Positions 9,724 through 21,174 of a stretch of 64,000 nucleotides of DNA are shown piece after piece. The stretch is taken from assembly GCF_031157375.1 (NCBI RefSeq), contig NZ_JAVIFV010000001.1:124001-188000 (forward strand), written 5' to 3'. The translations under genes were made by a program, and so were the position numbers. Origin of the DNA: Sphingosinicella sp. LHD-64 (GTDB taxonomy: Bacteria > Pseudomonadota > Alphaproteobacteria > Sphingomonadales > Sphingomonadaceae). A model generated the notes under the pieces. That model was not told where the DNA came from and did no database searches. It worked only from the letters and a program-made list of their open reading frames with translations. Within the stretch, counting starts at the first letter, position 1; each line of letters starts with the position of its first letter.

Positions 9724-9800
<77 letters not shown>

Positions 9801-9867: not shown

Positions 9868-10881
9868 TCAGGGTTGGTTCGCCTCGCGAATACGGCGGCG
9901 ACCTCTGATTCGAGCCTCGTCCGCCCCGAGAACCGATGCGAGCTCGACCGGCTGATAGGTGCTCTGAAGCTGGCGAGAGCTATTGATCGTATTACCCATC
10001 TTCGCGGCTAGCGAATTTGGATCGACCTCTCCCGCCGCCGCCTCTACGGCGCCAGAGCGTCGCATATCCATTAAGACCCGCCTGTCTCCGGGGAAGGTGT
10101 GCTCTCGGACCGATCGGAAATCATCGCCCAAGGTGTCCTTGCTGTACGGCTTGCCTTGTCGATGACGGAAAAGGGGCAGATTAACTGAGGCCGCCTCTAT
10201 GGTGCCTAGGTACGCCGTGACGAGGCGCGCCGTAGGTTTGCTGAGGGTGCCGATAATTTCTTTGCCCGTTTTTTCGCGTCGAACGGCCCGAAAGAGCAAT
10301 CGCCCATTTATGCCAGCGACATTGTCGCCGGTGAGCTTCCTGACATCGACGGGCGAAAACTGGGTGTCCCAAGCTACTGCAATGATGCACGCTAATCCGG
10401 AATATCCCAGCCGTAGGGCATCCTTGACCAGACGTGCGACTTCTCCTCGCCGCCAAACCTGCGATCGTGCTTGGGGTGCGATGCGCCTGATGCCCTGCGA
10501 AGGGTCTGCGCCACCATCGCAATAGCCCATTGCCGCCATCTTTCGCCAAAGGCGACGCCAATGCTTGATGGCGCGATAGGCCTCGCTGACACCGCGATTT
10601 TCGAGGACTGCTGCGTAGAAGGCGTCAATGTGCTCGAAGCTTACCGTTCGCGGATTGACGGTGCCGAAGATGGGTTCGATCGCGCGCTGTCCTCGGTCCC
10701 AGTCCTCCTTGGTTCTGGGTTCCATCCGCTGCCACTCGCTCGTTCCCCTAAATCTGTGGAACGCTTCGCCCGACGAGCCTGCTGGCCATGCCGGACGCCC
10801 AGTCGGCGTGAGTCCTAATCTGTGCAGTTGCCAGAGGCGGTTCTGCTCTTCGGCCTTCGCCCATGCCGCTGGCCCATCCAC
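9868..10881 (-). CDS. Divergent tyrosine recombinase (island integrase)
   Basis: A 337-residue protein: a helical N-terminal DNA-binding half (about 45-125) and a catalytic half with WDTQFSPVDVRKLT (171-184), MDMRRSG (271-277) and MGNTINSSRQLQSTYQP (295-311). Tyr309 is the likely nucleophile and Arg274 or Arg275 the second catalytic Arg. The first catalytic Arg position reads Ser, and the usual His is Asn, which seems typical of a divergent subfamily rather than decay. The called start is GTG 10881. An AlpA-like ORF overlaps the 5' end by 67 bp. Its place against the tRNA-Asp site makes it the probable integrase of the island. Confidence 0.82.
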   Translation of the reverse strand: MDGPAAWAKAEEQNRLWQLHRLGLTPTGRPAWPAGSSGEAFHRFRGTSEWQRMEPRTKEDWDRGQRAIEPIFGTVNPRTVSFEHIDAFYAAVLENRGVSEAYRAIKHWRRLWRKMAAMGYCDGGADPSQGIRRIAPQARSQVWRRGEVARLVKDALRLGYSGLACIIAVAWDTQFSPVDVRKLTGDNVAGINGRLLFRAVRREKTGKEIIGTLSKPTARLVTAYLGTIEAASVNLPLFRHRQGKPYSKDTLGDDFRSVREHTFPGDRRVLMDMRRSGAVEAAAGEVDPNSLAAKMGNTINSSRQLQSTYQPVELASVLGADEARIRGRRRIREANQP

Positions 10882-11106: not shown

Positions 11107-11358
11107 TCATGGCAGCAAGCGAGCATACAGCGCTGTCGGCTCTTCGCCCAAGGCTCGTGCGATGGCTGCGAACTCAATGACATCCAATCGGCGCTGCCCT
11201 CGTTCTATGTTGCTTATATAGGATTGGCCCCGGTCAAGCCGGGCCGAAAGCTGCGTCTGCGTGATTTCCTTGGAGCGGCGGACGGCCCTCAGCCGCCCAA
11301 TAAATTCCCGATGGTCATCCGTGAAGATTGTCTTCGCCGTGACCCTCCGAGCCGCCAT
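11107..11358 (-). CDS. XRE family regulator, possibly a controller-type protein
   Basis: An 83-residue protein that is essentially one helix-turn-helix domain: RLRAVRRSKEITQTQLSARL, then QSYISNIERGQRRLDVIEF and ALGEEPTALYARLL. Size and make-up resemble the small controller proteins of restriction-modification systems, although many phage and island repressors look alike. Start ATG 11358 lies 9 bp after a TATAGT hexamer, suggesting a leaderless mRNA. A perfect 12-bp palindrome (11378-11389) upstream is a likely operator. Target genes are not evident; the methyltransferases begin 3.5 kb away. Confidence 0.85.
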   Translation of the reverse strand: MAARRVTAKTIFTDDHREFIGRLRAVRRSKEITQTQLSARLDRGQSYISNIERGQRRLDVIEFAAIARALGEEPTALYARLLP

Positions 11359-11377
11359 GGCGATTGCACTATATGCT

Positions 11378-11389
11378 ATATTCGAATAT
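11378..11389. promoter_or_regulatory. Palindromic operator candidate upstream of the XRE gene
   Basis: ATATTCGAATAT is a perfect 12-bp palindrome. It is placed just upstream of a TATAGT -10-like hexamer (11373-11368, minus strand) and 20 bp before the XRE start codon, so a bound dimer would cover the promoter spacer. It could also act on the lipoprotein gene that starts at 11419 on the other strand. Confidence 0.5.
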
Positions 11390-11418
11390 GCATTTTTCTA
11401 ATATTCTTCCGACGGAGC

Positions 11419-11877
11419 ATGGCCTTGCTACGATCAAAAATAGGAGTGCTGCTCATCGTGTGTGGAGCATTTGGGGGCTGCAACCAGGAAGCACGGCAAG
11501 CACCCTCGGAGCCTAAAGCCGACCCGTTTGCCGAGATGGACCAGCGTGTGAAGCAAGCCGTCGCCGCCTCGCTAAGAGACCCTTCAAGTGTGCAGTTCAG
11601 GAGTGTGCGTCGCGTGTCTTTGGGTTCCTCGACAGCGCAGGGAAATGCGCAAGCCGAGGTGTCGGGCTGGCAGTATTGTGGAGAGGTCAACGGGCGGAAC
11701 GCGTTTGGCGCCTATGCCGGTTTCCGGGCATTCCACGCCTTTGATCCACGGGGCCAATCGGAGGGGCAGGGGATCAGCATATCTGACCCTTCGAACCCCG
11801 GCAGCAGTATGGCCTACGATGTCTTTTGCCGGAACGAGGATGGTACGGAACGAACGGGGCAACCCGTAAACTTCTGA
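11419..11877 (+). CDS. Small lipoprotein of unknown function
   Basis: A 152-residue lipoprotein: signal MALLRSKIGVLLIVCGAFGG with lipobox Cys about 21, then a soluble domain. That domain contains VKQAVAASLRDPSSVQFRSV and a central YCGEVNGRNAFGAYAGFRAF segment. The second part resembles small envelope proteins in which a pair of Cys (here in QYCGE and DVFCRNE) may form a disulphide. The start is ATG 11419, with GGAG very close upstream. It is divergent from the XRE gene and ends at a terminator. It may be cargo of the island; no family name can be given with confidence. Confidence 0.75.
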   Translation: MALLRSKIGVLLIVCGAFGGCNQEARQAPSEPKADPFAEMDQRVKQAVAASLRDPSSVQFRSVRRVSLGSSTAQGNAQAEVSGWQYCGEVNGRNAFGAYAGFRAFHAFDPRGQSEGQGISISDPSNPGSSMAYDVFCRNEDGTERTGQPVNF

Positions 11878-12201: not shown

Positions 12202-13311
12202 TCACAATTCCACCGCAGCTTCGCAATTGGGAAGGGGCGGGAAAATATCGTCCCATGAAAGCGTCGGCTCTGAGCTGGTCGTCACTAGGGATCGGGCAGC
12301 GCGGGTAATGTCGCCGGGCGTGAACGGATGCAGGAAAGCTGCCTCGCGCAACCTTTCAAGCATGTCTTGCCGAAACGTCATTGGCCCAGTCTTGCCACGG
12401 GCTCTGAATACATAATCGCCTTCGTTGGGGTGCATTTCGTCAAGGATCATATCGACAAGTGGGCCTCTCGGCAGGGACGCTTCGATGTGCGGGCTCCACC
12501 CCGTTGTCCGCGCTCTGGCTGCCAACACCTCCTTCATGGATAGCCCTGACACGATTAGCAGGCGAAAAGCCCATTTCCAGTTGATGGGTAGGACTTCGCA
12601 CGCCCTCCACAACTCGCCCAAATCGGATGGTGTCACCTTCTGCCTGAGCCGCGGCTCCGGTCGTGGCGGCGAACGATTGCCTTTCAGGACATTGGTCGTG
12701 ATGCGGCCGGTCTCGACCGCCCATGATAGGAACGAGCGTAGAATGTCCCGCAGATTCCGGGTGCCGTAGTAGGTTGGCCGGCAAGCGCATGCGGCTTCGG
12801 CTTGGCTGGCCGTCATGCGCTGGAGATAAAGATCGCCGATTGTCGGCAGGAAATGCCGATCAAACTCGCGTCTGACGCGCGATTGCCACTCGCTGCTCCG
12901 GAAGCACGATCCGTGGGAGAGATACGCTGCAAAGGCATCGCAGACCGTCTCGAGGGCGGATGGACGCGACGTTTCTTTCAACCGACCTCCTCGTGACAAT
13001 TCATATTCAGCTCGTCGCGCCTCGTTTCGCGCCGCTTGAACCGACATTGTTGGAAAGGAGCCGAGATGCTTCGCTCCGAGGGATTTCTTGTGGCCAGGGC
13101 GATAATACCAACTCTTGAGGCCTGAGGAGCGAACACGAATGTAGAGACCCTGCACCTCATAGTCGTGCATCGCATATTCTTTAGGCTGGGCATTCAACGC
13201 CGCCACAAGCGGGTCGGTCAGCGTTTCACGCTGGCGCGCTCGCCGCCCTCTTCGTTCTGGCCGCCAGTCAAACTCAAAAGCCGGTTGGAGCTTACGGCGC
13301 CGCGTAGGCAT
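12202..13311 (-). CDS. P4-type integrase with eroded catalytic centre
   Basis: A 369-residue protein. The N-terminal arm-binding domain is typical of P4-like integrases (about 45-105, GLYIRVRSSGLKSWYYRPG and LGSFPTMSVQAARNEA), and a core-binding helix region follows (about 120-215). In the catalytic part the first Arg is lost (SGLSMKEVL where a TGxRxxE pattern is expected), the HxLR box reads GDITRAA, and no Tyr follows in the last 40 residues. So it is probably inactive as a recombinase, either a decayed gene or a DNA-binding protein kept for regulation. Start ATG 13311 has AAAGGA upstream; a GTG at 13332 is also possible. Confidence 0.75.
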   Translation of the reverse strand: MPTRRRKLQPAFEFDWRPERRGRRARQRETLTDPLVAALNAQPKEYAMHDYEVQGLYIRVRSSGLKSWYYRPGHKKSLGAKHLGSFPTMSVQAARNEARRAEYELSRGGRLKETSRPSALETVCDAFAAYLSHGSCFRSSEWQSRVRREFDRHFLPTIGDLYLQRMTASQAEAACACRPTYYGTRNLRDILRSFLSWAVETGRITTNVLKGNRSPPRPEPRLRQKVTPSDLGELWRACEVLPINWKWAFRLLIVSGLSMKEVLAARARTTGWSPHIEASLPRGPLVDMILDEMHPNEGDYVFRARGKTGPMTFRQDMLERLREAAFLHPFTPGDITRAARSLVTTSSEPTLSWDDIFPPLPNCEAAVEL

Positions 13312-13406
13312 GGTGGGCTGTTCCTTTCCCACCAGTATACCGGCGACGCGCGAAATGGACCAAAGGGAGGCTCTGGATGACTCCTCACGCGCCGCCGATT
13401 ACGCCA

Positions 13407-13798: not shown

Positions 13799-14926
13799 CT
13801 AAGTCAATGCCGCGTCACGGGCTTTTTTGATCGCTGCCAGAAACCCATCTGGAAAACGCAGCGAGCCCTCTTTTGCGCGCTTGTAGAAGCCGGTCAGCGC
13901 GCGATGGGAGAGAGGTTTCCAAGAGCCATCCCTCAACGTTTCGAGGCTCGGAGTGACCTCGTTGAAGGGAAATTCCGATATTTCCACGCGATAGTGGACG
14001 CCTTTTTCCCCAAAAGCCGCCGCGGGCCATCTGCCACCTCGGACTAGGGGAGTGGTCGGTGACGAAAAGGGAATACCTGGTTTGGCCAATCTAGATGCGA
14101 CCCAACCAGAGGCTGGGACGGAGACTGCATTACCAATCATCGTCCAGCGGGGCGAGCGGGCTGTCGTGAAGGGCAGGGCGGTCCAGCCAGGCTCGAAACC
14201 TTGCAGGCTCTCACAGCTTTCCAAGCTAGGCATTTCGACGCGACCGTCTGGAAATAGAACCGCTGGTGCAGAGGGTATGCCCAAGCCTGAACCGCCCTTC
14301 AGCGGAGGGATCGAATCATCTGCTAGTCCGACGCCTGATCTTCCTTCGGTCCAATAGAAGCCAATCGGTCGTTTGAGCGATAGCTTGCGCTCAAGAGGGC
14401 GGCCCGCCTCATCTGCGAAAAGGACGGCACGCGGATCGACCTCTTTGCTGGCGATCATAAAGACGCGGCGGCGGCGATGCGGCAGTCCGAAAGATCTCGT
14501 GTCGACCACTCGATAAGCCCACGCATAACCTAGGCCCTCGATGCGATCGACGAGCGATTGCATGGCACGACCGGCATCCACGCTGAGCATGAAATACACG
14601 TTTTCAAGCGCGAGAGTGGGGAGATGTGAGCGCGTAAGAAGCTCGAACATCATATTTACGTCGCCACTTTTGGCGCCGCCAATACCGACTTTATCTCCTG
14701 CCATGCTCAAATTCTGACAGGGAAAGCCAGCCGTCACGACCGTGGTGCCCGCAGGCAGTTCCGACAAGGAGGACACATCGCCGGCTATCGCTGCGCCGGG
14801 AAAACGAGTGCTCAGGACAGTTCGACAGCTATCATCCTTATCGGCAAGGAGGAGTGTCTCGAATCCAGCCGATTGAAAACCCAGCTCGAATCCGCCAATG
14901 CCAGCGTAGAGGCCTGCTACTTTCAT
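13799..14926 (-). CDS. DNA (cytosine-5-)-methyltransferase
   Basis: A 375-residue C5 methyltransferase with all key motifs in order: AdoMet-binding motif I GLYAGIGGFELGF (5-17), motif IV GFPCQNLS (67-74, catalytic Cys70), motif VI ENV (108-110), motif VIII FGLPHRRRRVF (146-156) and motif X GNAVS (265-269). The target-recognition region (about 160-250) is short. A tail of about 95 residues after motif X is unusual. It transfers methyl from AdoMet to cytosine in DNA. It is divergent from the adenine methyltransferase gene across 62 bp, and part of a cassette with a Vsr nuclease. Confidence 0.93.
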   Translation of the reverse strand: MKVAGLYAGIGGFELGFQSAGFETLLLADKDDSCRTVLSTRFPGAAIAGDVSSLSELPAGTTVVTAGFPCQNLSMAGDKVGIGGAKSGDVNMMFELLTRSHLPTLALENVYFMLSVDAGRAMQSLVDRIEGLGYAWAYRVVDTRSFGLPHRRRRVFMIASKEVDPRAVLFADEAGRPLERKLSLKRPIGFYWTEGRSGVGLADDSIPPLKGGSGLGIPSAPAVLFPDGRVEMPSLESCESLQGFEPGWTALPFTTARSPRWTMIGNAVSVPASGWVASRLAKPGIPFSSPTTPLVRGGRWPAAAFGEKGVHYRVEISEFPFNEVTPSLETLRDGSWKPLSHRALTGFYKRAKEGSLRFPDGFLAAIKKARDAALT

Positions 14927-14988
14927 GGCGGCTCATTATAGACGCCAGCGTTCTGAGCAAGCTCCTAGCGTGGGGCCCGGGAGACGAA

Positions 14989-16365
14989 ATGCCATCATCG
15001 CCTCTGCCGCATTTGTACGACGCAGAGGGAGAGGTGGCCGCACTCCATGCTCGCTGCGGGGTTTATACCGCACATGACATGGTACGGGCAATGCTCGACG
15101 ACGTTTGCTGGACGGAATTTACTGATCTTCGTGATGCAAATTTGCTCGAGCCGGCTTGTGGAAACGGAGCCTTCGTTACGGAAGCGGCGATTCGGCTGGT
15201 GCGCTCTTTCAAGGCCAACGCCCGCGCGATGGAGGTGGCAACCCTAAGCCCGGCTATTCGCGCTTTCGAACTACATCCGGTCGAAGCGCATGCCGCTCGG
15301 GAAGCCTTAATCGCAGCCCTCGTCGGCGAAGGTATCGATCGCTCGGTTGCGTCCTCTCTCGGCGGGACGTGGATCACGACAGGTGATTTTCTGCTCGCGG
15401 ATTTTGGGGATCTGCGATTCTCACACGCCGTTGGTAACCCCCCTTACGCGCGCTGGTCGAAGATTCCGCCGGGCCTCCGAACTTCATATTCAGAAGCACT
15501 GCCTGCGGGTATCGCGAAGGGTGACATTTTCCTTCCTTTTTTGGATAGGACGATCGCGCTTCTGAAAGAGAATGGTACGCTAGGTTTTTTATGTTCTGAC
15601 CGCTGGCGCTTCATGGCTTTCGCTGAGGCTTTCCGCCGAGATCGTCTTCCCGAAATTGAAATCCTGAAGGAAGAGAAAGTGCTCCCGGACGAGGTCTACC
15701 AGCGAACGGTGGACATCTATCCGTCCAAGCTGATTGCCAAGCGCAGGACGCCACTCCCTGAGGTTGCGGGTCGCGCGGCACCGGGCCGTTCGTTGTTGGA
15801 AGCGGGCTATCGAGTTAAGGTCGGTCCGGCGTTGGGCTATACGCCTGCCTACGTATTGACCGAGAGGGACGCGGAGAAGATCGAGCCGGAACTCCTTGCG
15901 CCTTGGGCTCGGGCATCCGACCTTATCGGAAATTCCAGTCGAACCCCGCTCTGGGTGATTTGTCTGCATGATGAGGACGGCAGGCTGAGAAACCTGACCG
16001 AATACCCAAAAGCGTTCGATTGGATGCGGACACATCGCAAGAAACTAGAGGCGCGCTCGATTATCACAGAGGGCGATCCACATTGGTACCGTCCCATCGA
16101 CCGAGTGTTCGCCGCACCGTGGCGTCATTCGAAGCTGATCGTTCCGGAACTCGCTCGCCATCCACAGGTGTTCTTGGATCACACCGGTCTAATTCCATCG
16201 CATGGTAGCTACGCGATAATCGCGACCGGCAACGAACCAATCGAGACGTTGCACCGCAAGTTGGAAGGCGATGGTTTAGCCCAAGCTTTGAGGGGCCTGA
16301 CGCCCACGGTCAAAGGCGGATATGTTCGTTGCTACAAGCGCTTCTTGGAAATGATCCGGATTTAA
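14989..16365 (+). CDS. N6-adenine DNA methyltransferase (Eco57I/N6_Mtase type)
   Basis: A 458-residue gamma-type amino-methyltransferase: motif I LEPACGNGAF (53-62) and motif IV GNPPYARW (149-156), with a C-terminal region (about 270-450) that fits a target-recognition domain. It should methylate adenine N6 in DNA. No nuclease motif is visible at the N-terminus, so it is not an obvious type IIG fusion. I chose ATG 14989 with GGGAG at 14979-14983; the longer frame from 14854 would run into the divergent C5 methyltransferase gene. Its TAA overlaps the stop of the convergent 223-aa gene at 16362-16365. Confidence 0.88.
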   Translation: MPSSPLPHLYDAEGEVAALHARCGVYTAHDMVRAMLDDVCWTEFTDLRDANLLEPACGNGAFVTEAAIRLVRSFKANARAMEVATLSPAIRAFELHPVEAHAAREALIAALVGEGIDRSVASSLGGTWITTGDFLLADFGDLRFSHAVGNPPYARWSKIPPGLRTSYSEALPAGIAKGDIFLPFLDRTIALLKENGTLGFLCSDRWRFMAFAEAFRRDRLPEIEILKEEKVLPDEVYQRTVDIYPSKLIAKRRTPLPEVAGRAAPGRSLLEAGYRVKVGPALGYTPAYVLTERDAEKIEPELLAPWARASDLIGNSSRTPLWVICLHDEDGRLRNLTEYPKAFDWMRTHRKKLEARSIITEGDPHWYRPIDRVFAAPWRHSKLIVPELARHPQVFLDHTGLIPSHGSYAIIATGNEPIETLHRKLEGDGLAQALRGLTPTVKGGYVRCYKRFLEMIRI

Positions 16366-17033
16366 GAGGGGTAGAATAGATGGCGGGCACGTGCCAGAAG
16401 CTTAGCACCGTCCGTCCAGTCAGGCCTCGTTTGCTGGATCGCCGCTATCTGGGCTCCCAAGCCTGAAGCGCTGCCTCCATTGAGACCATACAAGCTGACG
16501 AGCACGGCAAGCCATGTATCGCCCATTGCGGAGCAAGGTCTCGGGAAAGCCGGGTAGCTCTGGGGTAGCCAGCCTGCATCGGTCGTCGGGCCTCCATTGC
16601 GAAAAACGCTGGTGAACTGGATGTGGGCGTATCCGTGCGTGTCGTCATCCTCTCTACCGCGCTCGAATCTAAGCCCCATCCTAGTCGGAGGCGCTCCAGA
16701 TAGAAGCAGTAAGCCCAAATCACATTCGGCCGCGTCGCCATCCACCACATGAACTTCGGGTCTGAAGAATGCCAAGCTGAAGCCTCGGGTGTCCGCCCGC
16801 CCCAGCGGCATGGGATGGAAGCTCAGAGGAGCATTGCCTCGTAGTCTGCCGGGATTCAACTCAGTCCAAATACGCTGCTGCGTCGGATCGCATTGCTGCA
16901 ATAGCTGCACGACGTTGTCGTGCTCTTCATTTTCCCGCCGAAACTGTTCGCACGGCTCAAGTCCCTGCAACGCAAAAAGCTGCATGGACGTGGCGACCTG
17001 ATCAAGAGTGAGAGGAGGGCACACGATTTGCAC
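16362..17033 (-). CDS. Unknown protein, third gene of the GHKL/receiver operon
   Basis: A 223-residue soluble protein with no signal or membrane segment. The N-terminal third is helical and Gln-rich (FALQGLEPCEQFRRENEEHD). The centre is strand-like with charged turns (RFERGREDDDTHGYAHIQFT) and the end is helical. I see no nuclease, phosphatase or ATPase motif. Its GTG start follows directly on the TGA of the receiver-like gene (TGAGTG), so the two are translationally coupled and their products probably work together. It is the best candidate for an effector or adaptor in the cassette, purely by position. Confidence 0.75.
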   Translation of the reverse strand: MQIVCPPLTLDQVATSMQLFALQGLEPCEQFRRENEEHDNVVQLLQQCDPTQQRIWTELNPGRLRGNAPLSFHPMPLGRADTRGFSLAFFRPEVHVVDGDAAECDLGLLLLSGAPPTRMGLRFERGREDDDTHGYAHIQFTSVFRNGGPTTDAGWLPQSYPAFPRPCSAMGDTWLAVLVSLYGLNGGSASGLGAQIAAIQQTRPDWTDGAKLLARARHLFYPS

Positions 17034-18338
17034 TCAGCCAAATAGGAGGCTGCGCGGGGAATAGTTGAATCCGGTCAACTGGGAAACGAAGCGCGGAAGC
17101 CAAGGCTTTCCGCCTTCTGGAACGAATTTCCCAATGTCAGGGCTATCTTGGACGTTCTTGAACGCTCTCACATCCTCGCAAAAGACGGCGCCTACGGAAC
17201 GTGGCCTGCTTACCATCTCAGAGTAAGCCTTGTCGTTTTCGATCTCGGACCACCAGAAGGCCCCATCCCGCGGCAACCAACAATCTGATTCAAAGCGGTG
17301 TTGGGAGGCTACGGCGTTATAGAACTCCGCTTCCAAACCGAAGGGCTCATTCGGATTTTGAGCAGTCGCGTCTAATTCCTCAAGCGAAGGCTCGTTCGCT
17401 GCGGAGCGAAATCCTACCCTCATCTGAAGATGCGGAGCATCCATTAGAACATCTTGCAGCCCGAGAATGTCCCGCCTGATCCAGTGATCTATTTCTGCAG
17501 CGACGACACGAGAGATAATGCGGCGTATGCTCGGCTCGGTAGGGCTCTGCTCTAGGTCTTTGAACAGCGTTTTGATCTCGGCTTCGTCCTTATCGGGGAA
17601 GACGATTCGTGCCCGATCATCAGCTATCAAAGACCGATTGGACGTCTTGAAGTGCTGCCAGAAAGTCGGATTGCCATCACGTTCTTCTTGCGGAGACAGG
17701 TAAGCAATCGCCCGTCCCGGAATCAGGTCGAGCGCGGATGCCGGAAATTTCAACGCAGTTAGAATTGGGTCATCCATTTTAGCGTCGACGAAGGCTATCT
17801 GGGCTCGCCGTCTATCCGCCACATCACGTAGCGCGGGCCAATACCAAGGTGCAAACGGGTCTGCAGAGTTGTCGTCACTGGGTTGCTCCCCAACATGCCA
17901 AAGACGCTTGTTTCGAAGATGGGGTTCGTTCAGCGCGAGGTCCGCTTTGGTCTCGTGATCGCCGATTTGATGCCGCAAGTCGAAATCTACGGAAGGATTC
18001 TTGTTGAGCGAGATTACGTAGGGAGTCTCGAAGAATGCTCTTAGATTCCCGGCGACTCCTTCCGCAGTCAATCGGGGACCTGTCGACGTTGCTCCTGAAA
18101 GGTTATTGTCGACGATAATGATGTCATAATCATCAAATGCGGCAGCATTGACATCGTCAGGGGCTGCGCCTGTTCCATTGGCATATGCTCGGACCACTTT
18201 GAAAAATGCGTCAAGGCGATTCATGAGTGCCTCAATGTCAGGCGCATCAACAATTGCATCTGGGCAGCCCGCGATAACGGCCTCTGCAATCTTGCCAGCG
18301 TCCTGATCATCGAGAACCAAGATACGAGGACCGGGCAT
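17034..18338 (-). CDS. Receiver-like protein with unknown C-terminal domain
   Basis: A 434-residue protein. Residues 1-125 look like a response-regulator receiver: acidic pair in RILVLDDQD (Asp10, Asp11), phospho-acceptor candidate Asp77 at the end of YDIIIVDNNLSG, then a strand TPYVISLNKN with Ser110 and Lys113 where receivers hold Ser/Thr and Lys. Residues 130-434 have no DNA-binding helix-turn-helix that I can see and match no family I know. The start at ATG 18338 is set by GGAGGGG just upstream, overlapping the kinase-like gene stop as TAATG. The pairing suggests that the upstream GHKL protein signals to it. Confidence 0.8.
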   Translation of the reverse strand: MPGPRILVLDDQDAGKIAEAVIAGCPDAIVDAPDIEALMNRLDAFFKVVRAYANGTGAAPDDVNAAAFDDYDIIIVDNNLSGATSTGPRLTAEGVAGNLRAFFETPYVISLNKNPSVDFDLRHQIGDHETKADLALNEPHLRNKRLWHVGEQPSDDNSADPFAPWYWPALRDVADRRRAQIAFVDAKMDDPILTALKFPASALDLIPGRAIAYLSPQEERDGNPTFWQHFKTSNRSLIADDRARIVFPDKDEAEIKTLFKDLEQSPTEPSIRRIISRVVAAEIDHWIRRDILGLQDVLMDAPHLQMRVGFRSAANEPSLEELDATAQNPNEPFGLEAEFYNAVASQHRFESDCWLPRDGAFWWSEIENDKAYSEMVSRPRSVGAVFCEDVRAFKNVQDSPDIGKFVPEGGKPWLPRFVSQLTGFNYSPRSLLFG

Positions 18339-20560
18339 TAACCCCTCCATGAAATTTGCATTGTAGTGCTGAAACCCTTCTCAGGTTCGACAAATGAAAC
18401 GTCGGCGGTGTGGCGAGAAGCCAGCATCCTGACAATAGAGAGACCCAGCCCCTGACCACCAATCACTAGGGATGCGTGGTCGCGACCGACATTCATGTTT
18501 CTCTCGAAAGGTTCAAACAGTTTCTCGGCCTCTGCCGGGGACATATTTAGGCCAGTACCCGTGTCGCTCACCCACAACCATTGATCTCTTCCTTCGACGT
18601 GGCCCTCGATCCGAACTCGGGCCTCCTTCGCCTCAAGAATGGCGTTCCAACTATTGGCCAGAACATTTTGCAGCAAAGCATTCCACGAGGCCAGTGGAGC
18701 CGCTGGGAAACGCATGTCCTCAGGCACGTCAATTTCAACGCTCATTCCGGTGGTAATCGCGCTCATGGCGTCGACAATCTGCCGCACGACTGGAAGCACC
18801 CTCAATCGACTGTCCCCTTCGCGATCTTCCTCCGCAAGAAGCGGCGCAAAGAGCGTCTGCAGCGCTCTGAGACGCTTTAATGACGCCGCCAAGGTGTCTG
18901 CTGAAGCAGCTATCTCTGGTAGGCCATGCTTTCTTGCCAGAGTACGTAGGCTACGCTCGGCACTTTCGAGGGTACGTGTTTCCCGAGCGAGTTCATGCGT
19001 GACTGCCAGAGCGGTCATTCCCGCAGCGGCGAGTGGGGCTAGCAGCGCAGCCCGCGCGTTGATTTCCTCGTCTTGCCTAGAAACGGCCTTCTGAGCATCA
19101 ACTGCTTCGCGCCGTATTTCTTTGTATACGACAGGCGGAATTTCCGTCTCGTGCCGCTGCAATAAATCGACGACCCGACCCTGCTTCCGAGCTGGAGGCT
19201 CGCTATAGCGCTTAGCTTCGACAGCCTTCAGAGAACGAGCTTTGTAGCGGTTGGCGTAGAAGTCTAGAGAGTAGCGGACCAGATCAGCTAGTTGTTCGTA
19301 GGCAGCGTTGTCGTGCAGCCGGTCCCGGCCGGGTTGGATTTGTAACCAAGATCCGGCTTTTGCGCCTGCCCGTTTGGCTGCGCGTTCCTCATGCGAGGTG
19401 CTGAGCTCCACGACGCCAAAAATCCGGCGCACCGTTGGCAAATCCAACATATAGCGCCCGTCTATGTTCAGTCGGCTCGGCAGCAAACTGGAGATCGACA
19501 AGCGGCTGGCATGGGCTTCTTCAATCTTCAGCCAGTCCTGATTTGTCCCATAGTACGGTAGTCGGAAACCGCCATCGTAGATGGAGACGTTCCCGTATTC
19601 AGTGAGGTAATCTCTCAACTCACCTACCGGAATACCCTCTGCCTGCCGATGTTCGAGGCGATATATGTAAATCTGGAATCGGACATCATCCAAGAAACAG
19701 GTGTCGGAAGAACGAATCTTCCGAATGGGAATTTGAACATGATCGACGTATCGCTGTTCCCTAGCGCCCTCAGGATAGCCAGATTGAAACTGAATTTCGA
19801 TCGTCGCGCTTCCGTTTTTACGCCCCTGCTCTATGCGCCCGTCTATTCGGGCACGCCAAAGTGTTTCCGTCAGTGCGTCGCGAAGACGATTAAACGTGTC
19901 CTCGGCGTCTTCAATGTCAGGCGCGGTCACTTCAACGTCGAAATTTCTAGGGTCGTCGCGACGGCGGTCGGTTTCGCCTAGCTTCCGGAACGGAGAGCGA
20001 AGCATCCAGAGCTCACGACCTAGCCGGTCGATATCGTCAGCATCCCAATCGTTTTTCAGGCCCCGCAGTATCAGCCGCGTTCCATTAGGGTGCCCCTCGT
20101 AAGAGGCAGGGCTGTTCAGCGTGGTGACGTCAACGGTAAACCGCTTGAGCTCTTCACCTTCAACGATTTTTGACCAATCAACCTTTGCACGCGTCGTCTG
20201 GGTTGGATCGTCCTCGGCGGTTGTCGTAAGCTCTAACTCGGATGCCAAGAACTGAACGGCGAGCCTCCCGATGCCCTTCGCTCCGGTTAGAGGGCGTCTC
20301 AGTCGCGGCGACACCTGTTCATTTGCTTTGTGACGTGTTCCGATCCGTAGCCAGAACTGCTTGAACGTCTCGGGCGACATCCCATGTCCGTCATCGACAA
20401 TCTCAATGTGGTCATCGGCAAACGTTATGTGGCAGGTGGTCGCGTCCGCGTCGTAGGCATTTTTGACAAGTTCGCCGAGTGTAATGTGGTGCTTTCCAAT
20501 GAGGCGCTCACCCAGCTCTTGGAGGAGGGCAGCGTCCACGATGAAAGGTTCTTTTGACAT
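18338..20560 (-). CDS. Double GHKL ATPase: Hsp90/MutL-like module fused to histidine-kinase-like module
   Basis: A 740-residue cytosolic protein. The N-terminal GHKL module resembles Hsp90/MutL/MORC ATPases: ELVKNAYDADAT (30-41, Glu30 and Asn34), IVDDGHGM (54-61), TGAKGIGR (92-99). A middle region of about 300 residues links to a helical dimerisation-like segment with VTHELARETRTLE (His522 as in an H-box), an N-box near 632-640, G1 DTGTGL (666-671) and G2 GGQGLGLSIV (702-711) of histidine kinases. No membrane helix or sensor domain is visible. First gene of a tightly coupled operon with the receiver-like and unknown proteins. ATG 20560 preferred over 20605, which would overlap vsr. Confidence 0.88.
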   Translation of the reverse strand: MSKEPFIVDAALLQELGERLIGKHHITLGELVKNAYDADATTCHITFADDHIEIVDDGHGMSPETFKQFWLRIGTRHKANEQVSPRLRRPLTGAKGIGRLAVQFLASELELTTTAEDDPTQTTRAKVDWSKIVEGEELKRFTVDVTTLNSPASYEGHPNGTRLILRGLKNDWDADDIDRLGRELWMLRSPFRKLGETDRRRDDPRNFDVEVTAPDIEDAEDTFNRLRDALTETLWRARIDGRIEQGRKNGSATIEIQFQSGYPEGAREQRYVDHVQIPIRKIRSSDTCFLDDVRFQIYIYRLEHRQAEGIPVGELRDYLTEYGNVSIYDGGFRLPYYGTNQDWLKIEEAHASRLSISSLLPSRLNIDGRYMLDLPTVRRIFGVVELSTSHEERAAKRAGAKAGSWLQIQPGRDRLHDNAAYEQLADLVRYSLDFYANRYKARSLKAVEAKRYSEPPARKQGRVVDLLQRHETEIPPVVYKEIRREAVDAQKAVSRQDEEINARAALLAPLAAAGMTALAVTHELARETRTLESAERSLRTLARKHGLPEIAASADTLAASLKRLRALQTLFAPLLAEEDREGDSRLRVLPVVRQIVDAMSAITTGMSVEIDVPEDMRFPAAPLASWNALLQNVLANSWNAILEAKEARVRIEGHVEGRDQWLWVSDTGTGLNMSPAEAEKLFEPFERNMNVGRDHASLVIGGQGLGLSIVRMLASRHTADVSFVEPEKGFSTTMQISWRG

Positions 20561-20592
20561 CTCGCTCGCCCCGTCCACCCCTATCGCTATAT

Positions 20593-21033
20593 ATGCGCGA
20601 TCCACTTAGCAAATCCTTGGATAGGGACATCTTCCAGTTCGTTCCCGAGAAGCGTCGTCGCCACATGGCGGCGGTTAAGGGGAAAAATACAAAGCCCGAG
20701 CTGACAGTCAGGCGTGCGGCGCACGCTTTGGGCTACCGCTTCCGGCTACATGGCAAAGGGTTGCCCGGAAAGCCCGATTTGGTGTTCGCAAGGCGGCGCA
20801 AAGTCATATTCGTGCATGGGTGTTTCTGGCATCGCCATGGCGGGTGTAAGCGAACCACGACTCCGGCGACACGAGCGGATTTCTGGCAAGCCAAATTCGC
20901 AAGGAACGTTGAGCGCGACGCGCATAATATATCGGAGTTGAAGGCGATGGGCTGGCATTCGCTCGTCATTTGGGAGTGCGAAACTTTCGAGCCGGCGGCG
21001 CTGCATTCTCGGCTCCAGGAGTTTCTAGACTAA
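20593..21033 (+). CDS. vsr: Vsr-type very-short-patch-repair endonuclease
   Basis: A 146-residue nuclease of the Vsr fold: RRRHMAAVKGKNTKPEL (22-38), the catalytic-site strand GKPDLVF (59-65, metal-binding Asp62), and FVHGCFWHRHGGCK (73-86) with zinc/active-site Cys and His. Vsr enzymes nick at T:G mismatches formed by deamination of methylcytosine and accompany C5 methyltransferases such as the one in this island; some relatives serve as restriction nucleases. It is divergent from the GHKL gene with 32 bp between, so promoters must reach into the neighbouring genes. ATG 20593 is the start that fits family length. Confidence 0.9.
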   Translation: MRDPLSKSLDRDIFQFVPEKRRRHMAAVKGKNTKPELTVRRAAHALGYRFRLHGKGLPGKPDLVFARRRKVIFVHGCFWHRHGGCKRTTTPATRADFWQAKFARNVERDAHNISELKAMGWHSLVIWECETFEPAALHSRLQEFLD

Positions 21034-21076: not shown

Positions 21077-21124
21077 TATCTCGGCGGCAAAGTTGGAATG
21101 CGGCTTGATTCTTCGACTAGATAT

Positions 21125-21174
21125 CCGGCCTGTCACGCCGGAGGTCGCGGGTTCGAGCCCCGTCACTCGCGCCA
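21125..21174 (+). repeat. Attachment site, right copy (tRNA-Asp 3' fragment)
   Basis: Exact 50-bp copy of 9751-9800: anticodon arm, T-arm, acceptor 3' strand and CCA of tRNA-Asp with no 5' half. It marks the right end of the island; chromosomal DNA resumes at 21175. Confidence 0.95.

Follow-up and report, generated by a model that had tools for sequence, protein, structure and literature searches.

A candidate restriction-like cassette with a kinase–receiver pair, two DNA methylases and an undescribed third protein in a tRNA-Asp island of Sphingosinicella sp. LHD-64

The window analysed here, a 64,000-nucleotide stretch of the Sphingosinicella sp. LHD-64 genome (contig NZ_JAVIFV010000001.1, positions 124,001–188,000), carries at 13799–21033 a cassette of six genes that takes up the right-hand end of a genomic island of 11.4 kb. 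Three of the genes form a minus-strand operon encoding a kinase-like protein with two GHKL ATPase modules (P0005), a receiver protein (P0004) and a third protein of 223 residues (P0003), and this trio is accompanied by a C5-cytosine DNA methyltransferase (P0001), an N6-adenine DNA methyltransferase (P0002) and a Vsr endonuclease (P0006). An initial annotation, made from the sequence alone, had read this segment as a candidate new defence cassette; its six open reading frames (ORFs) all lie where it placed them and are intact as ORFs. The tight packing it described is likewise seen, with the junctions TAATG and TGAGTG joining the operon genes and the convergent P0002 and P0003 genes sharing overlapping stop codons at 16362–16365. 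Start codons of P0002, P0004, P0005 and P0006 were chosen by reading the sequence.

P0001 (13799–14926, minus strand) matches PF00145 (expectation value, E, 4e-34) and PADLOC model PDLC03324 over almost the whole model length (E 2e-108), and its PCQ, ENV and motif X elements are identified by eye, the PCQ cysteine being the Cys70 named in the initial annotation. P0002 (14989–16365, plus strand), whose ORF opens at 14854 and whose likely ATG at 14989 gives 458 residues, is an Eco57I-class, PaeR7I-like enzyme that matches PF07669 (E 8e-10) and PDLC03313 (E 7e-70) and shares 27.8% identity with paeR7IM across 95% of the query. P0006 (20593–21033, plus strand; likely ATG 20593, 146 residues) is divergent from P0005 and matches PF03852 (E 6e-26) and TIGR00632 (E 6e-41, over its cut-off). 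The methylase component of a type II restriction–modification (R-M) system is present according to Pfam, PADLOC and NCBIfam, and both methylases probably mark DNA. As for a cognate endonuclease, Vsr alone among the six proteins is recognised as a nuclease in Pfam, PADLOC, NCBIfam and PHROGs, and P0003 is unassigned. An XhoI/PaeR7I-family endonuclease is found in none of five genomes, comprising this one and those of four six-gene relatives (L010–L013, below), some of which are incomplete metagenome-assembled genomes (MAGs); the same search finds the enzyme solely on an Ornithinimicrobium plasmid (L005).

P0005 (18338–20560, minus strand; ORF 18338–20605, likely ATG 20560, 740 residues) consists of an N-terminal GHKL ATPase (HATPase_c_3, PF13589, E 4e-21), a histidine-bearing helical region containing H537, and a C-terminal kinase-type ATPase (HATPase_c, PF02518, E 1e-18). 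A kinase scan of 84,980 genomes yielded at least 146 confirmed loci, the best 80 of which were kept (L010–L089). Across 80 kinases, catalytic-type residues are strictly conserved: E45, N49, D71, G73 and G75 occur in 80/80, H537 in 79/80, and N647 and N651 in 77/80 each, and position E538 is Glu in 62 and Asp in nine. The two-component trait, a His phosphoacceptor beside an acidic residue together with N and G boxes, is present in this family. The residues Glu30 and His522 of the initial annotation, which fit a shorter start, correspond to E45 and H537.

P0004 (17034–18338, minus strand; ORF 17034–18350, likely ATG 18338, 434 residues) combines a receiver domain, bearing D14, D15 and D81, with a long C-terminal domain. 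It has no family match in Pfam, NCBIfam, PADLOC or PHROGs, and the receivers of three relatives are likewise unmatched in the first three libraries. Over roughly its first 105 positions, a profile built from 45 P0004 relatives finds solved response regulators (best E 4e-9), which turns the earlier guess of a "receiver-like" protein into a supported assignment. In the predicted structure (predicted local distance difference test, pLDDT, 87.6; predicted template modelling score, pTM, 0.91), D81, the Asp77 of a shorter start in the initial annotation, ends the third strand. A Foldseek comparison of the whole model with the PDB returns no match at E ≤ 0.001, so the C-terminal domain appears undescribed, and no DNA-binding output domain is recognised by Pfam, NCBIfam or Foldseek. 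Across 68 receivers, D81 is kept in 66, the D14 position is Asp in 53 and Glu in 14, and the D15 position is Asp in 65 and Glu in three.

P0003 (16362–17033, minus strand) finds no match in Pfam, PADLOC, NCBIfam or PHROGs, nor do the third proteins of five relatives in Pfam, PADLOC or NCBIfam; a plasmid search with P0003 gives no match, and the family profile retrieves nothing from PDB sequences. Within a family of 19 members, R122, E124, H137, Q139 and G183 are invariant and H133 is nearly so. In the predicted fold, a model of moderate confidence, R122 and E124 share a strand and H137 and Q139 share a second one, an arrangement that would suit an active site. P0003 is also the fastest-changing of the six proteins (27–33% identity to its closest counterparts, versus 49–51% for the kinase), as one would expect for a component with a variable target, and this undescribed family is the most novel part of the cassette. 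Two candidate identities were rejected. A ubiquitin-E2-like fold is suggested by 46 of the 50 PDB matches listed, all E2 chains or complexes, yet none is significant (E ≥ 0.13, probability ≤ 0.10, template modelling score < 0.25, root-mean-square deviation mostly > 14), and the viral structure library does no better than the PDB. Identity with the PaeR7I endonuclease fails on the Ornithinimicrobium plasmid, which holds both a third protein (L005, 12549–13307) and a separate PaeR7I enzyme (14493–15155).

Profiles grown from the window proteins detect all six genes in four further loci (L010, L011, L012 and L013), which belong to two alphaproteobacterial MAGs, a Mesorhizobium and one acidobacterial MAG. 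The core order of kinase, receiver, third protein, reversed N6 methylase and C5 methylase is the same in 5/5 loci including the window. Four of them have Vsr upstream of the kinase, divergently in the window and in the same direction in L011–L013; in L010 it follows the C5 methylase. Identities to the window proteins are 49–51% for the kinase, 38–39% for the receiver, 27–33% over 99–175 residues for the third protein, 42–49% for the N6 methylase, 55–57% for the C5 methylase and 47–58% for Vsr. The third-protein counterparts, the most diverged, beat 200/200 shuffles in all four relatives, so the likeness of the six-gene sets is not due to chance. In a quick kinase tree, built without bootstrap, the window and L010–L013 form one clade (Shimodaira–Hasegawa-like approximate likelihood ratio test, SH-aLRT, 100). 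The earlier view of the genes as a unit is thereby upheld, since four further loci repeat the set with its core order unchanged, the three operon proteins remain together, and the methylases and Vsr cluster beside the trio; the possibility that the trio is never conserved together outside this strain is ruled out. A Mycolicibacterium arabiense plasmid additionally carries an N6 methylase, kinase, receiver and third protein along with a C5 methylase that matches Vsr at its C-terminal end. Compared on their own, the plasmid's third protein and that of the window do not outscore shuffles (9/200 are as good), and their apparent kinship rests on the iterated profile and on gene position.

These loci fall within a close clade of 21 (the window, L004, L005, L010–L024, L030, L031 and L037), from which L032, cut off inside the kinase, was left out and in which L005, with a split kinase ORF, is absent from the tree. 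All 19 close-clade loci whose contigs continue beyond the receiver gene have the third protein (L020 and L023 are cut short before that point), and D14, D15 and D81 are all retained in 18/18 close-clade receivers. A C5 methylase is found no more than 2.5 kb away in 19/21, L020 being too short and that of L021 lying 5.7 kb off; Vsr occurs in 17/21, and both methylase types are near in 8/21. The clade spans Pseudomonadota, Acidobacteriota, Actinomycetota, Chloroflexota and Latescibacterota, and its loci show no further recurrent partners beyond integrase-like ORFs and pairs common to two or three loci. Single ORFs in L004 (2699–4363) and L018 (8244–9959) match both the C5 methylase and Vsr profiles and are likely fusions. 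On the Ornithinimicrobium plasmid the kinase gene is broken into several ORFs (L005, 9007–11346), with the PaeR7I-family endonuclease nearby.

Beyond this clade, a third ORF follows the receiver in 42/82 relative loci with a long kinase ORF. These were called by position and motif, with position outweighing the motif since the pattern matched elsewhere in the ORF in several loci; the window, L005, L022, L007, L027, L033 and L034 were added from profile results or by eye. The third protein is thereby found in nine phyla, extending to Planctomycetota, Bacteroidota, Thermodesulfobacteriota and haloarchaea. The motifs of the close (RFE...HxxxHxQ) and wider (HFD...HPxxHxQ) third-protein families align in register, but hhalign gives only 9.6% probability (P 0.0033) over 29 columns; a single superfamily of all third proteins is no more than likely. 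Between the two groups the receivers show clear kinship (97.7% probability, E 1.6e-12). Moreover, a third-protein alignment searched against 398 genomes of the phylum matches four, this genome and three others, and in 3/3 of the latter the receiver, kinase and a methylase adjoin the third protein.

Linkage to methylases was assessed in the 70 loci flanked on each side by 1.5 kb or more. A methylase lies within 2.5 kb in 60 of these (20 with C5 only, 31 with N6 only and nine with both), including 43/47 loci with the third protein versus 17/23 without it. Near flanks contain 66 methylase ORFs in 346 kb versus six in 722 kb farther out, a 23-fold higher density whose size is indicative, and Vsr ORFs number 16 and two in the same intervals. 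The methylase type thus swaps as the trio stays. Three haloarchaeal loci (L007, L029, L034) pair the kinase–receiver genes and a third ORF with an N6 methylase, and on a Hymenobacter plasmid an annotated Piwi-domain protein (L008, 2210–4441) stands beside the methylase and trio. ORFs of 1122–1239 residues with N6-methylase matches occur close to the kinase or directly upstream of it in L010 (6372–9956), L039 (6450–9818) and L070 (3352–7071) and are possibly type IIG or PglX-like.

Comparison with known systems narrows what is new. The idea of the initial annotation is not new as a whole: a two-component-like pair of GHKL kinase and receiver-like protein, found next to C5 methylases and Vsr and linked to R-M, has already been published. 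The third protein, called simply unknown in that annotation, is where most of the novelty lies. That pair, HEF_HK/Response_reg_2 (PF19191/PF19192), is linked in 91.6% across 644 regions and occurs near C5 methylases and Vsr, and a signalling system controlling R-M was suggested (PMC8011034; Bellieny-Rabelo 2021). The cassette resembles it in joining an HATPase_c_3, His-helix and HATPase_c protein to an adjoining receiver-like protein beside a C5 methylase and often Vsr. However, P0004 is unmatched by PF19192, the two matches in this genome lying elsewhere (E 0.24), and the single PF19191 match in the genome, P0005 around H537, reaches only E 0.27 and 13.9 bits against a cut-off of 24.1. PF19192 is present in 10/398 genomes of the phylum, where its receiver protein measures ~540–720 residues and is comparable to the cassette receivers over 30–50 columns only; relatives of P0003 or of the cassette receiver profile occur in 0/10. 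The six of these loci with wider flanks have a C5 methylase and kinase in 6/6, Vsr in 3/6 and the third protein in 0/6. Judged by these profiles, the cassette appears to be a sister design of the published pair. A receiver fused to the third protein in the PF19192 loci was sought by motif and by profile and not found. Kinase-matching ORFs beside PF19192 proteins in L100–L105 measure ~990–1078 residues, longer than the cassette kinase.

The comparison with Mza drawn in the initial annotation proves the weaker one. In PADLOC, a library that presumably includes Mza models, P0005 matches two models of type II restriction enzymes and nothing else, in each over the N-terminal part; no Mza model is among these matches, and none of the Mza partners named in the initial annotation appears among the Pfam matches of the six proteins. 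Its best NCBIfam match is the GHKL N-terminus of the BbrUII/HgiDII restriction enzymes (NF050001), which covers P0005 residues 23–198 with E 1.4e-28. The score, 99.9 bits, falls short of the 550-bit cut-off, and the remainder of P0005 is a kinase-type module. With PaeR7I/XhoI R-M systems the cassette shares the N6 methylase but not the endonuclease, which is absent from this genome. Detocs has a receiver fused to a purine-nucleoside-phosphorylase effector, whereas Pfam and NCBIfam find no such domain in P0003 or P0004. MORC/paraMORC R-M neighbourhoods bring a GHKL ATPase together with C5 methylases and Vsr (PMC2292703); these and Mza are described with helicases and nucleases, and the cassette has a receiver and P0003 instead. 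VcSduA (GHKL-Shedu), which requires a GHKL ATPase domain for nuclease-based defence, offers a precedent for the proposal below; it is a single protein with a PD-(D/E)XK nuclease, and the available text mentions neither methylase nor receiver (PMC12137116). HATPase and REC are named among predicted, unvalidated defence domains in a figure legend of the DefensePredictor report (PMC13092281). No gene-for-gene match to a named system was found in Pfam, PADLOC, NCBIfam or PHROGs, and literature searches confined to an open-licence library turned up no account of either the six-gene set or the third protein.

The reading we favour, which we hold to be about evenly poised between right and wrong, is a restriction-like defence cassette on a mobile island: self DNA is marked by methylation, and a kinase–receiver relay licenses an effector, probably P0003. 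The two methylases would mark the cell's own DNA, and P0005 would serve as an ATP-driven sensor whose N-terminal GHKL module, resembling those of MORC/MutL and of the BbrUII/HgiDII restriction enzymes, engages or surveys DNA. Its C-terminal kinase module would phosphorylate H537, from which the phosphate, or an equivalent conformational signal, would pass to D81 of P0004; the P0004 C-terminal domain would then license P0003 to damage unmarked DNA or another target. Vsr might repair T:G mismatches arising from C5 methylation or nick DNA as an accessory. The gene content, the domain identities, the conserved catalytic-type residues, the linkage across phyla and the location in a mobile island are observed; from them we infer that the cassette senses unmethylated DNA, signals by phosphotransfer to P0003 as effector, and acts against phages. 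Because methylases of either chemistry keep the trio company and the N6 methylase has no recognised endonuclease partner, the trio as restricting agent is the simplest reading. A broader version is more tentative and in our view doubtful: a new, widespread restriction class of bacteria and haloarchaea, in which a phosphorelay of a GHKL double-ATPase kinase, a receiver and a new enzyme family takes the place of the endonuclease and pairs with any C5 or N6 methylase, with [HR]-x-[DE]...H-x3-H-x-[QH] as the signature of the enzyme family. Restriction normally acts as a constitutive, all-or-nothing cut. Were an ATPase of histidine-kinase type and a receiver to set the moment at which unmarked DNA is attacked, it would turn into an immune response that is gated and can be switched. 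The frequent pairing of GHKL ATPases with DNA methylases, noted long ago, would also gain a testable explanation, and the third protein provides a concrete new gene family for assay.

Several observations weigh against this proposal of a licensed effector. The switch Thr/Ser position is Asn in 18/18 close-clade receivers and the Lys position is Phe in ten, Arg in four, Lys in three and Tyr in one, so phosphotransfer may be altered or absent; P0004 itself has Lys there. The P0003 model is moderate only (mean pLDDT 73.7, pTM 0.67) and has no match at E ≤ 0.001 in the PDB or BFVD, and no nuclease motif is recognised, so the designation "effector" draws on position and conservation. P0004 is found in this genome only among 298 family and 385 class genomes, so the cassette is rare near this strain. 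In addition, 10/70 loci have no methylase inside 2.5 kb, and the methylase profiles behind the enrichment were grown from the same loci. A scan of 105 of 112 candidate neighbour ORFs of related loci speaks for defence, with five integrases, four Mrr_cat proteins and several ORFs that hit defence models (DISARM, type I restriction, methyl-directed restriction), but it had no control set.

The same architecture might instead represent a conventional R-M system under regulation, with P0003 (or the P0004 C-terminal domain) an ordinary but highly diverged type II endonuclease and the kinase–receiver pair controlling no more than its expression or stability. Methylase(s), Vsr and an unassigned gene make up the usual type II layout, and restriction enzymes often evolve fast, as P0003 does relative to the kinase. 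Control of R-M systems by such pairs is moreover what the authors of PMC8011034 proposed. This is nevertheless unlikely in our estimation: P0003 has no PD-(D/E)XK, HNH, GIY-YIG or PLD family match, P0004 has no recognised DNA-binding output domain, and one trio serving both C5 and N6 methylases is awkward for an endonuclease of fixed specificity. A division into two adjacent systems, one of C5 methylase, Vsr, kinase, receiver and P0003 and the other an orphan PaeR7I-type N6 methylase left from another R-M system, would explain why many relatives have the trio with a C5 methylase only (e.g. L014–L016, L018, L019) and why the PaeR7I endonuclease still adjoins the N6 methylase in Ornithinimicrobium. 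It is rendered quite improbable by the position of the N6 methylase between the third protein and the C5 methylase in 5/5 clade members, and by a C5 partner of one subfamily there (bit scores 417–445 in L010–L013 versus <45 in C5-only relatives). Less probable again is an epigenetic regulator or selfish addiction module that relays methylation state to host gene control or to post-loss killing; it is favoured by the regulatory nature of the receiver domain and of the His-kinase module and by the mobility of the island, but clustering with defence genes and integrases suits defence at least equally, and no output domain for transcription is found.

The island itself is delimited by tRNA-Asp(gtc) (9724–9800, plus strand), whose 3′ part (9744–9800) forms the left attachment repeat, and by a copy of that part at 21118–21174 (plus strand) as the right attachment repeat. 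The two 57-bp direct repeats are 95% identical and spaced 11,374 bp apart, and G+C falls from ~0.66–0.70 outside to 0.54–0.62 inside, all in agreement with the tRNA island end described in the initial annotation. Among 20 relatives with a matching right flank, nine same-genus loci were compared for an empty site: tRNA-Asp lies upstream of the flank in eight, at 14–158 bp in five and 561–1,233 bp in three, and none is present in one. A tRNA target, direct repeats, an integrase and an empty site in relatives thus mark the segment as a mobile island. A promoter and terminator scan gave results no better than chance. The tyrosine-recombinase-like integrase adjoining the left repeat (9868–10881, minus strand) matches phrog_1 (E 3e-10), with a Pfam Phage_integrase match of merely E 0.023, under the cut-off. 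A second integrase, of the arm-binding domain type (12202–13332, minus strand), matches PF13356 (E 5e-11) and phrog_1 (E 2e-21); with two such unlike integrase-like genes, the island may be a composite of two insertions. Between them, an ORF at 11224–11877 (plus strand) matches phrog_2320, of unknown function (E 3e-19), and is adjoined by an Xre-type helix–turn–helix protein at 11107–11358 (minus strand).

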